From positions 2,542,001 through 2,606,000 of the forward strand of contig NZ_CP097218.1 of NCBI RefSeq assembly GCF_023373525.1: a stretch of DNA of 64,000 nucleotides. The letters are read 5' to 3'. Source of the stretch: Brachybacterium kimchii. GTDB taxonomy: Bacteria > Actinomycetota > Actinomycetes > Actinomycetales > Dermabacteraceae. Numbering within the stretch: position 1 is the stretch's first letter; the number at the start of each line of letters is the position of its first letter. Of the stretch, positions 2,518 through 60,988 are shown piece after piece. The notes beneath the pieces are model-generated. The model did not search any database, was not told the origin of the DNA, and was given only the letters and a program-made list of their open reading frames with translations. Made by a program: the position numbers and the translations under genes.

Positions 2518-3024
2518 ATGGCGGAAGCATCCGGACACTCCCCGACCGAGACGGCCACCACCGCGGGAGCATCCGCGTCCACGGCCCCCGACGCCCTCCC
2601 CGAGAAGTACACCCGCGCTCTCTACACCGCGCACGTGGAGAACGTCGGCGGCACGGCGGGCGAGGTCCGCGTCGAGAACGGACCCACGCTGCCCACGGGC
2701 GGTCCGTCGGCCGACGCCACCGGCTCGAATCCCGAGCAGTTCCTCGCGATGGCGTGGAGCACGTGCCTGGGCGAGACCCTCAAGGCGGTGCTGCGCGAGC
2801 AGGGGATCGACGCCGTCACCCATGTGCACGTCGAGGTCAGCCTGCACTTCGACCCCTCGGGCGGCTACCGCTTCGCGCCGCGCGCCCTGGTGAGCATCGA
2901 GGACGTGGGCGAGGACGAGGCCCGCCGTCTCGCGGAGGCCGCGCACGCGCGCTGCCCCGTCTCCCGACTCCTCGGCCGTGCCGATTCGGGTGCTCTCGAG
3001 GTCGTGCCGCCGCCCCGGGGCTGA
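2518..3024 (+). CDS. OsmC/Ohr-family protein
   Basis: 168 residues. The family reduces organic hydroperoxides with two redox cysteines. Here Cys83 (WSTCLGETL) and Cys146 (HARCPVSRL) occupy the expected places in the central helix and near the C-terminus. The first 30 residues are low in complexity. The gene follows the flavin monooxygenase by 107 bases in the same direction. Monooxygenase chemistry leaks peroxide, so a protective role is a reasonable inference. The sequence alone does not decide between the OsmC and Ohr subgroups. Confidence 0.85.
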   Translation: MAEASGHSPTETATTAGASASTAPDALPEKYTRALYTAHVENVGGTAGEVRVENGPTLPTGGPSADATGSNPEQFLAMAWSTCLGETLKAVLREQGIDAVTHVHVEVSLHFDPSGGYRFAPRALVSIEDVGEDEARRLAEAAHARCPVSRLLGRADSGALEVVPPPRG

Positions 3025-3075: not shown

Positions 3076-3957
3076 TCAGGGGCGCGCGTCGAGGATCTGC
3101 TGGGCGCGCGCGAGAGCGACGTCGACCCCCGCGCGGACCTCGGCGAGCCCCTGCGCGACGGGCAGCGCCCGCAGCTCGTCGGCGATGATCTCGACGCCCC
3201 AGAAGCCCGTCCAGCCCGCGTCGGTCATCGCCACCACGAAGCCCGCCATGTCGAGATCCCCGCGGCCCGGGAGGCAGCGCGGAGCGACGCCGTCGGCACC
3301 CACCGGCGCGTCACCGAGCTCGACCATGGCGACCGGGACGCCCTCCAGGAGCGCGGGCAGGAGCGTGAAGTCGTCGTCGCCGGATCTCGCGAGCTGGAAG
3401 ATGTCCACGGCGAGCCCGGCACGCGGATGGTCCACGGCACGGACGAGGTCGACCGCGTCGCCGAACATCGGCAAGTTGGTGTCCGCCATCGCCTCGAGCG
3501 CCAGGGTGACGCCGAAGGCGTCGGCGCGCTCGGCGACCCGGTGCAGATCCGCGGCGAAGGCCGCGGGGTCCGGCGCCTCGGAGCGATCGGCGCCGAGGTG
3601 GCATGCGCCGATCTTCAGGGCGGGGGCTCCGAGCTGCGCCGCGGCCTCGAGGAAGTCGTCGAGCTGGCGGTCCGAGGCCGCGCGAGCCGCGCCCTGTTCC
3701 CACCAGTCGCTGAGGAACTCGAGCTCGATGCGCTCGATGCCGGCGTCCTCGAGCTGTGCGCGCAGTCGGGGAAGGCCGATCGTGTCGCGCAGCTCCACGA
3801 GATCGGCATGCTGGATCCCCGCGCCTCGCCAGCCCGAGGCGGCGAGGGCCTCGATCCGCTCCGGGAGAGGCACGGGGCTGCGCTGATCCTCGTCACGGGG
3901 GCCGACGTCCCCCGCCCAGGTCCAGCAGGAGGCCAGCAGGTCGTGGTGGGTGCTCAT
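3076..3957 (-). CDS. sugar phosphate isomerase/epimerase family TIM barrel
   Basis: 293 residues of the xylose-isomerase-like (AP endonuclease 2) TIM-barrel family. Conserved acidic positions expected to bind a divalent metal are visible: a Glu in LALEAMADTN, an Asp in AVDIFQLARS and a Glu near the C-terminus in WGVEII. Members isomerise or epimerise sugars, inositols or hydroxypyruvate. The specific substrate cannot be told from sequence. The gene stands alone between an OsmC gene in convergent orientation and a candidate small RNA. Two further members of this family occur in the window, at 12883 and 20189. Confidence 0.75.
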   Translation of the reverse strand: MSTHHDLLASCWTWAGDVGPRDEDQRSPVPLPERIEALAASGWRGAGIQHADLVELRDTIGLPRLRAQLEDAGIERIELEFLSDWWEQGAARAASDRQLDDFLEAAAQLGAPALKIGACHLGADRSEAPDPAAFAADLHRVAERADAFGVTLALEAMADTNLPMFGDAVDLVRAVDHPRAGLAVDIFQLARSGDDDFTLLPALLEGVPVAMVELGDAPVGADGVAPRCLPGRGDLDMAGFVVAMTDAGWTGFWGVEIIADELRALPVAQGLAEVRAGVDVALARAQQILDARP

Positions 3958-4103
3958 GGGTTCTCGCCTCTCCGCGGCGGCAGCGCTGCGATGCGCACTG
4001 CCATGGATGCGTACGAGTGTACAAAGGTCGCGTCCGCCACCGCCCGGCCGCTCGCATAGGGAACCGACAGCTCGCGTTCAGCGCCTGCCAGGCTGGGACC
4101 GGT

Positions 4104-4225
4104 TAGGTATATCCCAGGTGCTGACGGAGCGGCGAGCCACTGAGGAGAGGCTCCCGCCTGACCCGCAGCACCGGGGAAAGGGATGGCCCCGGCCCGTGGG
4201 GACGGGCCGGGGCGCTTTCTGTTCC
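4104..4225 (+). ncRNA. candidate small structured RNA
   Basis: In the 311-base gap between two minus-strand genes, a TAGGTATAT stretch (4104-4112), usable as a -10 region, is followed by nested complementarity. GGTGCTG at 4117-4123 pairs with CAGCACC at 4166-4172. Inside it GCGG and GAGCC (4129-4132, 4134-4138) pair with GGCTC and CCGC (4149-4157) around a ten-base loop. A 12-bp terminator hairpin follows. The result would be a plus-strand transcript of about 105 bases. It does not match any riboswitch or RNA family whose core I can recall, and no plus-strand gene follows, which argues for a free-standing RNA. A strong -35 box is not visible. Confidence 0.45.
4186..4213. terminator. strong intrinsic terminator hairpin, possibly bidirectional
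   Basis: A perfect 12-bp stem, 4186-4197 against 4202-4213, with a GGGG loop. On the plus strand it is followed by GCTTTCTGTT and on the minus strand by CATCCCTTT. It can end the candidate small RNA and also the S9 peptidase transcript coming from the right. Confidence 0.65.
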
Positions 4226-4268
4226 GGGGGTTCTGCGACCGGGCCGGACCGTTCAGCCGTTCAGCCGT

Positions 4269-6329
4269 TCAGCCCAGCGTCGCGGGGCGGTCCCAGGCGA
4301 TGTCGCGCACGTGCTCGTCGAGGAACCCGAGGAACGTCTCGTACCAGACCTGTGCATTGCCGCGACCGGTGATCCAGTGCCCCTCGTCGGGGAAGTAGAG
4401 GAACCGGTGGCGGGTGCGGCCGTGCTCGTCGCGCGGCGTGGCGGAGAACTCGTGCAGGTCGTACCAGAGCGCGTGGCCCTGCGCGATCGGCACGCGGTAG
4501 TCCTTGTCGCCGTGGATCACGAGCATCGGCACCTGGATCTCGGCGACCGAGTCCTTGGGGTTGAAGCGGCGGTTCTGCTCGCGCATCGGCCGCTCCCAGC
4601 CGGCGTTGTCGGTGGTGCGGCCCATCGATGCCGTGTCCCACAGCGAAGCGTGGGTGACGACGCAGCGGAAGCGGTCACCGGTGTGCCCGGCCACCCAGTT
4701 CGCCATGTACCCGCCGTAGGAGCCGCCCGCGAAGGCGGTGCGCTCGGCGTCGATGTCCGCGCGGGCGATCGTCGCGTCCGCGAGCGCCATGATGTCGGTG
4801 AACGGGGCGCCGCCGAGCTCGTGCTGGCCGCGGTCGATCATCTCCTGTCCGTAGCCGGTGGAGATCGCCGGGTCCGGCAGCAGCACGGCATAGCCCGCGT
4901 CGACGAAGGGACCGGGGTTCCAGCGATAGGTCCAGGCGTTCCAGGATCCCCAGGGTCCGCCGTGCGCGCAGACGACCAGCGGGTGCGGACCCTCGCCCGC
5001 GGGCAGACGCAGCCAGGCGCGCAGCGCCGTGCCGTCCTGGGCGGTGGCCGAGACCTCGGTGAGGGCGCCGGGCTGCTCGAGGGCGTCGGCGGGGTGCGGC
5101 AGGTCCGTGATCTCCCCGCTCGCCAGGTCGATGCGCACGGGGTGCGGGGCGACGGCGATCCCGGAGGCCGAGGCGACGGCCGCACCGCCCGCGACGGCGA
5201 GCTGCGCGAAGGAGAGCTCCTGGTCCGGTCCGCCGGCGAGCCGGCGCCCGGCGGCGTCGCCGAGGCCGCCGATCCACACGGATCCGCGGCCCTCATCATC
5301 GCCCGCGCCCACGAGGGTGTCCCCGTCGACCCAGGTGAGATGGGGGTCCCGGTCCAGATCGGGCCAGATCTCGCGGCTCTCCCCGGTGGCGAGGTCGAGC
5401 ACCTCGGTGCGCGAGCACGCGGAGGCGGTCTGCGTCCAGGTGCGCTCGCGCGAGATCAGCACGCGCGTCCCGTCGGGGCTGAACTCGCCGGGCCAGAACT
5501 CGATCTCGTTCGTGGCGTCGCGCAGCAGCTGCGGGGCCTGCGTCCCCGTGAGGTCGAGCAGGTAGAGGCGGCCGACGCCCAGGCGGTCGTCGAGCGAGTC
5601 GGTCATCGCCGCGAGCGCGCGGTGGCCCTGCCGGTCCGCGCTCCACGCGCTCAGCCGCCCGGGCGGCATCTCCAGGTGCCGGAAGTGGAGGACCTGGCGG
5701 CGCGGGCCGTCGTCGTCAACGGCCGACGGGTGCTGGTCGGATGACGCCCCCTGACCAGCCTGGGCGGTCGCCGTGGCGGTGAAGAGGTCCTCGGGGAGGG
5801 CCGCGACGGCGAGCACGCTGCGGGCGGGGCCCAGGTCGTGGTCCCAGTGGCGGGTCGGGAAGCCGTCGTGGAGGGCGGCGCTGACCCCTGCCTTCGTGCG
5901 CTCGCGGGAGAGGCGGGCATGCTCTGCCTCGTCGGACGCCTGGGAGTGGACGTCGATCTCGGCGACGAGCACGCCGTCGGCGAGGTGCAGTCCCCCGAAG
6001 CCGCCGGGACGGGAGGCGACCTCCCGGGCCTCTCCGCGAGGGGGCAGGGCCCAGAGCTGGGCGTCGTCGGCCTCCTCGCCGTCCTCCCCCAGGCGCTGGG
6101 CGGTGAAGAGTGTGGCGCCGTCCTCGGCGAGGGCCACGGAGCCCACGGACGCGTTCCCCCGGGTCAGGGGAAGCAGGGTGTCCTCGAGGAGCTCCACGAG
6201 CGAGCTGCGGTAGGAGGTGCCCTTCGCGTCCGGGGCCGAGACCTTGGCGACGATCCTCCCGCCCGGCGTCGTCTCCAGTCCCGCGAGGCGGCGGGCGTCC
6301 AGCAGTGCAGTGATGCTCCGATGCGTCAT
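4269..6329 (-). CDS. S9 family (prolyl oligopeptidase-like) serine peptidase
   Basis: 686 residues: a variable N-terminal beta-propeller-type region and a C-terminal alpha/beta hydrolase domain, as in acylaminoacyl-peptidase-like S9C enzymes. The catalytic triad is readable: Ser537 in GGSYGG, Asp610 in HGDKD and His651 in EGHW. No signal peptide is present, so it should act in the cytosol on short or blocked peptides. The start at 6329 (MTHRSITALL) is chosen because alignable sequence begins there; the frame stays open far upstream without further support. The gene is divergent from the 6456 membrane protein. Confidence 0.85.
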   Translation of the reverse strand: MTHRSITALLDARRLAGLETTPGGRIVAKVSAPDAKGTSYRSSLVELLEDTLLPLTRGNASVGSVALAEDGATLFTAQRLGEDGEEADDAQLWALPPRGEAREVASRPGGFGGLHLADGVLVAEIDVHSQASDEAEHARLSRERTKAGVSAALHDGFPTRHWDHDLGPARSVLAVAALPEDLFTATATAQAGQGASSDQHPSAVDDDGPRRQVLHFRHLEMPPGRLSAWSADRQGHRALAAMTDSLDDRLGVGRLYLLDLTGTQAPQLLRDATNEIEFWPGEFSPDGTRVLISRERTWTQTASACSRTEVLDLATGESREIWPDLDRDPHLTWVDGDTLVGAGDDEGRGSVWIGGLGDAAGRRLAGGPDQELSFAQLAVAGGAAVASASGIAVAPHPVRIDLASGEITDLPHPADALEQPGALTEVSATAQDGTALRAWLRLPAGEGPHPLVVCAHGGPWGSWNAWTYRWNPGPFVDAGYAVLLPDPAISTGYGQEMIDRGQHELGGAPFTDIMALADATIARADIDAERTAFAGGSYGGYMANWVAGHTGDRFRCVVTHASLWDTASMGRTTDNAGWERPMREQNRRFNPKDSVAEIQVPMLVIHGDKDYRVPIAQGHALWYDLHEFSATPRDEHGRTRHRFLYFPDEGHWITGRGNAQVWYETFLGFLDEHVRDIAWDRPATLG

Positions 6330-55802: not shown

Positions 55803-55919
55803 GTCCGGCGGCGTCCTACTCTCCCACACCCTCCCGAGTGCAGTACCATCGGCGCAGAAGGGCTTAGCTACCGGGTTCGGAATGGAACCGGGCGTTTCCC
55901 CAACGCTATGACCGCCGTA
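55803..55919 (-). rRNA. rrf: 5S ribosomal RNA
   Basis: About 117 bases with the actinobacterial 5S pattern on the minus strand: a 5' end beginning ACGGCGGTCATAGC, the internal GGTTCCATTCCGAACCCGG and a 3' end complementary to the 5' end (GCCGCCGG). It is the last gene of the operon, about 110 bases after 23S. Ends are estimated to a few bases. Confidence 0.93.
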
Positions 55920-56031
55920 ACACCACGAGACAACACCAACCCACCACACCCCCACACAAAGAAGGGGCCCGGGGGTTGTTTCCCGAGAACCACACAGTAG
56001 ACGCGAGCACAGCACACAATTCTCAAAATTT

Positions 56032-60988
<4,957 letters not shown>

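Follow-up and report, generated by a model that had tools for sequence, protein, structure and literature searches.

Between a TIM-barrel gene (positions 3076–3957, minus strand), whose start faces the element described here, and an S9 peptidase gene, also on the minus strand, whose stop codon lies at 4269, the analysed window (a stretch of 64,000 nucleotides of Brachybacterium kimchii DNA) carries a compact structured element on its plus strand. Since both flanking genes are on the minus strand, no plus-strand gene lies close behind the element, as a sequence-only reading of this DNA had already pointed out. The nested stems and the perfect terminator hairpin described in that reading were both recovered. 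The minimum free energy (MFE) and centroid folds agree on a nested hairpin at 4117–4172. It is built from an outer stem (4117–4123, GGTGCTG, with 4166–4172, CAGCACC), a short third helix that joins the stems in the fold and had been missed before (4125–4127 with 4163–4165), and an upper stem with one bulged base (4129–4132 and 4134–4138 with 4149–4157). An asymmetric internal loop of 5 nt occupies 4158–4162, and the apical loop segment, ACUGAGGAG, lies at 4139–4147. A G-rich linker, GGGGAAAGGGAUG (4173–4185), leads into an intrinsic terminator (4186–4223) consisting of a perfect 12-bp stem (4186–4197/4202–4213), a GGGG loop (4198–4201) and the tail GCTTTCTGTT; the T tract after the hairpin at 4186–4213 is weak. 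A complete set of rRNA genes (16S, 23S and 5S) is found near the end of the window (55803–60987, minus strand).

The likely 5′ end of the RNA is at about 4115–4117 and not at 4104, because 4103–4108 forms a putative −10 region. With the 5′ end placed by this −10 element, the 3′ end by the terminator, and the aligned family taken into account, the predicted product is an sRNA of ~108 nt at 4116–4223 on the plus strand. The segment 4104–4225 folds with an MFE of −77 kcal/mol, compared with −54.6 (sd 4.2) for dinucleotide shuffles (z −5.4), and none of 200 such shuffles was equally stable. Twelve copies folded singly each yielded the nested hairpin, linker and terminator, with z values from −3.7 to −7.9. 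Predictions leave four bases of the apical loop open; the linker is mostly unpaired when folded without the 3′ U tail, and with the tail included it is partly paired to it.

The host genome holds two copies of the RNA, the second of which (G000:C1:3513598-3513694, minus strand) shares 81% identity with the 3′ part of the query in a DNA search. With the window copy as query, DNA searches located the element in 34 of 58 genomes (the host counted), all of the same genus, and with another copy as query they gave matches in 42 of the 47 genomes of the host’s family, including a weak, terminator-only match in G059 that was rejected as a copy. A covariance model built from 45 copies and run over the 47 family genomes identified the RNA in 43 of them, representing five of six genera, with 50 matches in all. 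A second match in G007 was discarded as essentially terminator only, with ~50 model positions skipped, leaving 49 copies. The four family genomes without a match are three fragmented assemblies of the host’s own genus (520–750 contigs) and the sole g26 genome. Two copies are present in six genomes: G000, G017, G029 and G035 combine a window-type copy with the common copy, and G005 and G030, both Brachybacterium, have tandem copies. The tandem copies are at L025:1298-1621 (G030) and L036:1089-1548 (G005), each with an upstream block of its own.

To look past the family, the model was run on 396 sampled genomes of the order and matched 35, of which 33 belong to the family. The matches outside it (G176 and G191) were rejected, as ~50 model positions were skipped and essentially the terminator alone was aligned. 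No convincing match outside the family was therefore obtained in this 396-genome sample, for which stricter filters applied and nine candidates were scored per genome, so that weak distant relatives could escape. As far as sampled, the RNA family appears to be restricted to the host’s family, Dermabacteraceae. Within it, the window-type copy keeps the loop, the linker and the terminator and differs from the common copy on both sides of several stem pairs. The two most divergent copies, from genus g27 (L122 and L123), retain the closing stem, the linker and the terminator, have a different upper hairpin, and carry neither the apical loop sequence nor the CAG repeats of the promoter; the stretch upstream of these two copies, CTAAGGTAACATTCTGATAAC, is a different one that both have in common.

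Conservation of the fold was assessed in alignments A1 and A2, which comprise 45 of the 49 copies (omitted were the window-type copy of G017, whose RNA sequence does not differ from that of the window copy, a near-duplicate in G001 and the two divergent g27 copies), and in alignment A3, which comprises 48 of the 49 and omits the G017 copy. A3 was fitted to the model and leans towards the structure, so figures for both kinds of alignment are given. Across the 48 copies of A3, 93.5% of the cells are paired, against at most 48.1% in slid versions of the alignment, and two-sided changes occur in 23 of the 32 pairs, amounting to 152 cells compared with 43 (sd 5) in shuffles. A plain MAFFT alignment of 45 copies gives a similar picture, with 91.3% of cells paired, where slid versions reach no more than 50.9%, and two-sided changes in 20 of 32 pairs (125 cells compared with 39, sd 6, in shuffles). 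Such changes are present in all four helices, those of the nested hairpin included. In the terminator, all 12 pairs form in every one of the 48 aligned copies, and 7 of the 12 show two-sided changes.

Compensatory changes in both alignments are what conserved structure in an intrinsically terminated sRNA would lead one to expect. The sequence-only reading had named a lack of stem conservation in relatives, together with a missing plus-strand transcript, as what would speak against it; the stems are kept, with compensatory changes. The strand of the putative transcript can be judged from the mismatches tolerated: the cells of the terminator stem contain 6 G-U and 0 A-C combinations, which fits transcription of the plus strand, and for all helices together the numbers are 48 G-U and 33 A-C, a weaker strand signal. 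Covariation over 48 copies, the G-U bias of the terminator stem and the gap-free promoter block described below thus bear out the earlier proposal of a structured small RNA with its own terminator.

The constant parts of the molecule are G-rich, namely the apical loop CUGAGGAG, the linker GGGGGAAAGGGAU and the GGGG loop of the terminator. In the alignment of 45 copies, the UGAGGAG of the apical loop is invariant (45 of 45, from four genera), and most of the linker and the GGGG-containing terminator loop are invariant or nearly so. The linker is nearly unchanged in g27 as well, and because these copies keep the linker and not the loop, it is the most widely kept single-stranded part of the RNA.

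A conserved promoter block precedes the RNA at 4057–4108. Its most distinctive feature is a putative activator site of three (C/T)AG units spaced exactly 11 bp apart (4057–4059, 4068–4070 and 4079–4081, plus strand), followed by a putative −10 element, TTAGGT, at 4103–4108, whose first T is present in 44 and whose last T is present in all of 45 copies. Among 97 upstream columns aligned for the 45 copies, eight are invariant (41–42, 52–53, 62–64 and 91). Seven of these are the bases AG, AG and CAG, and the eighth (T91) is the last T of the −10 element. The 51-column block from column 41 to column 91 is free of gaps in all 45 rows, and mean identity rises from 0.42 further upstream to 0.71 in the repeat region. 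A simple consensus scan of 3950–4300 in the window copy returned no recognisable sigma-70 −35 element. Taken together, these sequence patterns strongly support both the gene and its promoter.

The block seems to be reserved for this RNA. In the host genome the full pattern occurs twice, solely before the two RNA copies. A stricter signature was located 23 times in a set of 38 genomes, spread over 23 of them and each time exactly 5 nt before a covariance-model match, with no occurrence of the reversed control; because the signature was derived from the same promoters, their recovery is circular, and it is the exclusivity that is informative. This signature is not carried by the window copy and misses some promoters, the RNA being present in 35 of the 38 genomes.

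Phased 11-bp repeats that overlap the −35 position are typical of activators of the OmpR/PhoB type. Direct repeats with a period of ~11 bp near the −35 position are what we observe, except in the two g27 copies, and the activator of the RNA gene is thus probably an OmpR/PhoB-type response regulator. Regulation through a Pho box is unsupported, since GTTCAYC-type 11-bp repeats are found before the host pstS gene and not before the RNA copies. The pstS-upstream repeat, GTTCATCTGACGTTCAC (L128 near 2728–2744, minus strand), has an 11-bp period and is of the kind known as the actinobacterial Pho box, in line with the Streptomyces Pho-box consensus.

The earlier label of ‘unassigned’ holds at the level of catalogued families. 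When the whole window was searched against Rfam 15 at the gathering threshold, only three rRNAs were returned and nothing at the element, and six other loci of the RNA (L002, L019, L071, L072, L076 and L122) likewise gave no match at that threshold. A match to ClpQY_promoter at L071 (24 bits against a cut-off of 42, E 0.0013) covers the terminator end only and was rejected. A literature search on Brachybacterium small RNA and Dermabacteraceae sRNA found no relevant title. The suggestion of a new RNA class stands in part: the sequence family is new, but its build is ordinary, a stem-loop, a linker and a terminator being a common architecture among bacterial sRNAs. The element is very probably a real regulatory RNA, apparently uncatalogued.

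The surroundings of the copies bear on how such an RNA might act. A crude GC3-based gene caller places a convergent gene next downstream in 38 of 48 copies, which argues that the RNA is not a leader; judged by sequence alone, this neighbour, the promoter block and the terminator outline a gene with a promoter and a terminator of its own. That the RNA serves as a leader, riboswitch or attenuator for a gene behind it is very unlikely, although a stem-loop followed by an intrinsic terminator does resemble an attenuator and the GGGG of the linker could act as a competing partner for the terminator CCCC: a same-strand downstream gene was called in just 10 of the 48 copies, 5 of the 10 calls are open reading frames overlapping the terminator itself, and no riboswitch was matched at the gathering threshold. 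The same crude calls place the hairpin between converging genes at most loci, as would be expected if the element were only a terminator working in both directions, or part of a 3′ UTR, and not an RNA gene. This reading leaves the covarying 5′ hairpin, the constant loop and the gap-free promoter block unexplained, and we consider it highly improbable. Hardly credible is a short protein-coding gene starting at the AUG in GGGAUGGCC and reading MAPARGD...; an ATG does follow a purine run in the window copy and in most aligned copies, but it is absent from L073–L075, from L122/L123 and from one of the L036 tandem copies, and the changes in the terminator arms are compensatory changes of pairs.

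One and the same uncharacterised convergent gene lies next downstream of 27 of the 48 copies, from three genera and with the two tandem pairs counted twice, which suggests that the locus beside it is the ancestral place of the RNA. This gene (for example at L071:2078-2860 and L072:2356-3288, both minus strand, 260 and 310 aa) lies tail to tail with the RNA and has a C-terminus reading ...VKRVFGIDIR/IRRVFGIDLR (...RRVFGIDLRR or similar); two versions of its product had no Pfam or NCBIfam match. Its recurrence speaks for an antisense or 3′-end interference role, in which overlapping 3′ ends would control the mRNA of the convergent neighbour. We nevertheless hold this to be improbable, because the neighbours differ and the RNA is still conserved (the window copy adjoins the S9 peptidase gene, and the second host copy adjoins a DUF2306 gene and a sodium/bile-acid symporter gene), and because the constant parts are the loops and the linker rather than any part that a neighbour would dictate. 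The fact that neighbours change while promoter, loops and terminator are conserved argues for action in trans.

Candidate targets were sought as exact complements of ~10 nt, a length that seeds of 6–8 nt would escape. In the host genome, an exact complement of ten linker bases is present nowhere but at the two RNA genes. Across four genomes, complements of the linker showed no enrichment (9 other sites compared with 8 for the reversed control), and complements of the loop were fewer than in the control (12 other sites compared with 25). Close to start codons, linker complements were found 18 times in 15 of 38 genomes, compared with 4 for a reversed control, which is no model of true ribosome sites; the RNA gene itself accounts for 4 of the 18. 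Among these start-proximal sites in the 38 genomes, one 133-aa gene recurs in four genomes and another gene in two, and none is genus-wide. Pairing with rRNA, the tail of the 16S included, was no better than for shuffled oligonucleotides.

Individual sites are as follows. The 133-aa gene has at least 9 linker-complementary bases just before its ribosome site in G014, G016, G024 and G028 (L174, which is the L142 site, L166, L172 and L181); in L142 this site overlaps the end of an upstream coding sequence, and its conservation may reflect coding. In one genome only (G032, L146/L171), CATCCCTTTCCC, complementary to twelve bases of the linker, lies ~25 nt before an mscL-like start codon. The case for mraZ as a target is weak: in two species the complement precedes it by 316 and 327 nt and falls within a repetitive CCCTCCACC region. 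The names mraZ, mscL and 5′-nucleotidase were assigned from the protein sequences and are presumptive.

The reading we favour, with a probability of roughly 0.55, is that of an independently transcribed sRNA of ~108 nt, which is switched on by an OmpR/PhoB-type regulator and works in trans via its G-rich segments. The sequences show the conserved element with its structure, strand and copies, and the promoter block with its exclusivity; that the RNA is transcribed, what kind of activator it has and that it acts in trans are what we infer. The activator, probably of OmpR/PhoB type, would bind the three 11-bp-phased repeats, which would replace a −35 element, and so switch the RNA on. The transcript would then fold into the nested hairpin, the G-rich linker and the terminator hairpin, and the exposed G-rich loop and linker would act in trans, most likely through base pairing with mRNA stretches rich in C. 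Pairing of this kind through short seeds is preferred here over the capture of a protein, since no mode is commoner among such sRNAs. Against the favoured reading speak the target searches described above, which found no conserved target, the linker, which can itself pair in part with the U tail, and the g27 copies, which lack the loop and the CAG repeats.

The main rival, held tentatively, is a decoy RNA that is transcribed in the same way but works by capturing or guiding a protein specific for single-stranded G-rich sequence instead of pairing with mRNAs. It would account for three exposed G-rich elements (the GAGG loop, the GGGGAAAGGG linker and the GGGG terminator loop, the last kept in 47 of 48 copies) that are near-invariant while the stems vary, and complementary sites are not enriched. 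However, seeds of 6–8 nt would pass unseen through 10-nt searches, no candidate protein has come forward, and g27 has lost the apical loop while retaining linker and terminator. A related and more speculative view, which we regard as doubtful, takes the sRNA to be the sole output to which one signalling system is dedicated, no other place in the 38 genomes having yielded the complete three-repeat operator. The RNA would work through its three exposed G-rich elements, as a counterpart of the C-loop 6C RNA, and possibly by capturing a protein instead of by seed pairing.

The sRNA family is ordinary in kind and, apparently, new in identity, with a private promoter. A near-universal sRNA coupled to a private, strictly spaced operator would offer a clean experimental handle, in that the operator could serve as bait for the regulator and the G-rich elements as bait for the partner. 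The 48 sequences constitute a ready seed alignment for a new RNA family.

Among characterised systems, the promoter invites comparison with OmpR/PhoB operators, which share with the block upstream of the RNA direct repeats of 11-bp period. M. tuberculosis PhoP is reported to bind 7-bp direct repeats with a 4-bp spacer (PMC4832192). The block before the Brachybacterium RNA differs from OmpR/PhoB operators in having three units with a short CAG core. Of the RNAs, F6 (RF01791) is a mycobacterial sRNA, likewise short and actinobacterial, and one Brachybacterium copy matches it below threshold on the correct strand; at 23.3 bits against a cut-off of 46 (E 0.025), and confined to the terminator end (L019, 1512–1551), this match was rejected. 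6C RNA (RF01066) was rejected as well, its scores of 17.5, 19.1 and 19.1 bits falling short of the cut-off of 47 and all lying on the opposite strand. A search for RF01066 in the host genome gave no match at E 0.001, with 150 of 3119 candidates scored and a control recovering 1 of 14 genomes below the cut-off, so that the absence of 6C from this genome is unproven. 6C RNA is reported to measure ~100 nt by Northern blot in Corynebacterium, to have two stem-loops with homopolymer-rich loops and to occur in many genera of Actinomycetales (PMC4046766). The Brachybacterium RNA resembles it as an actinobacterial sRNA of ~100 nt with two stem-loops and homopolymer-rich loops. The loops of 6C are rich in C, whereas those of the Brachybacterium RNA are rich in G, which makes the latter closer to a mirror image of 6C.
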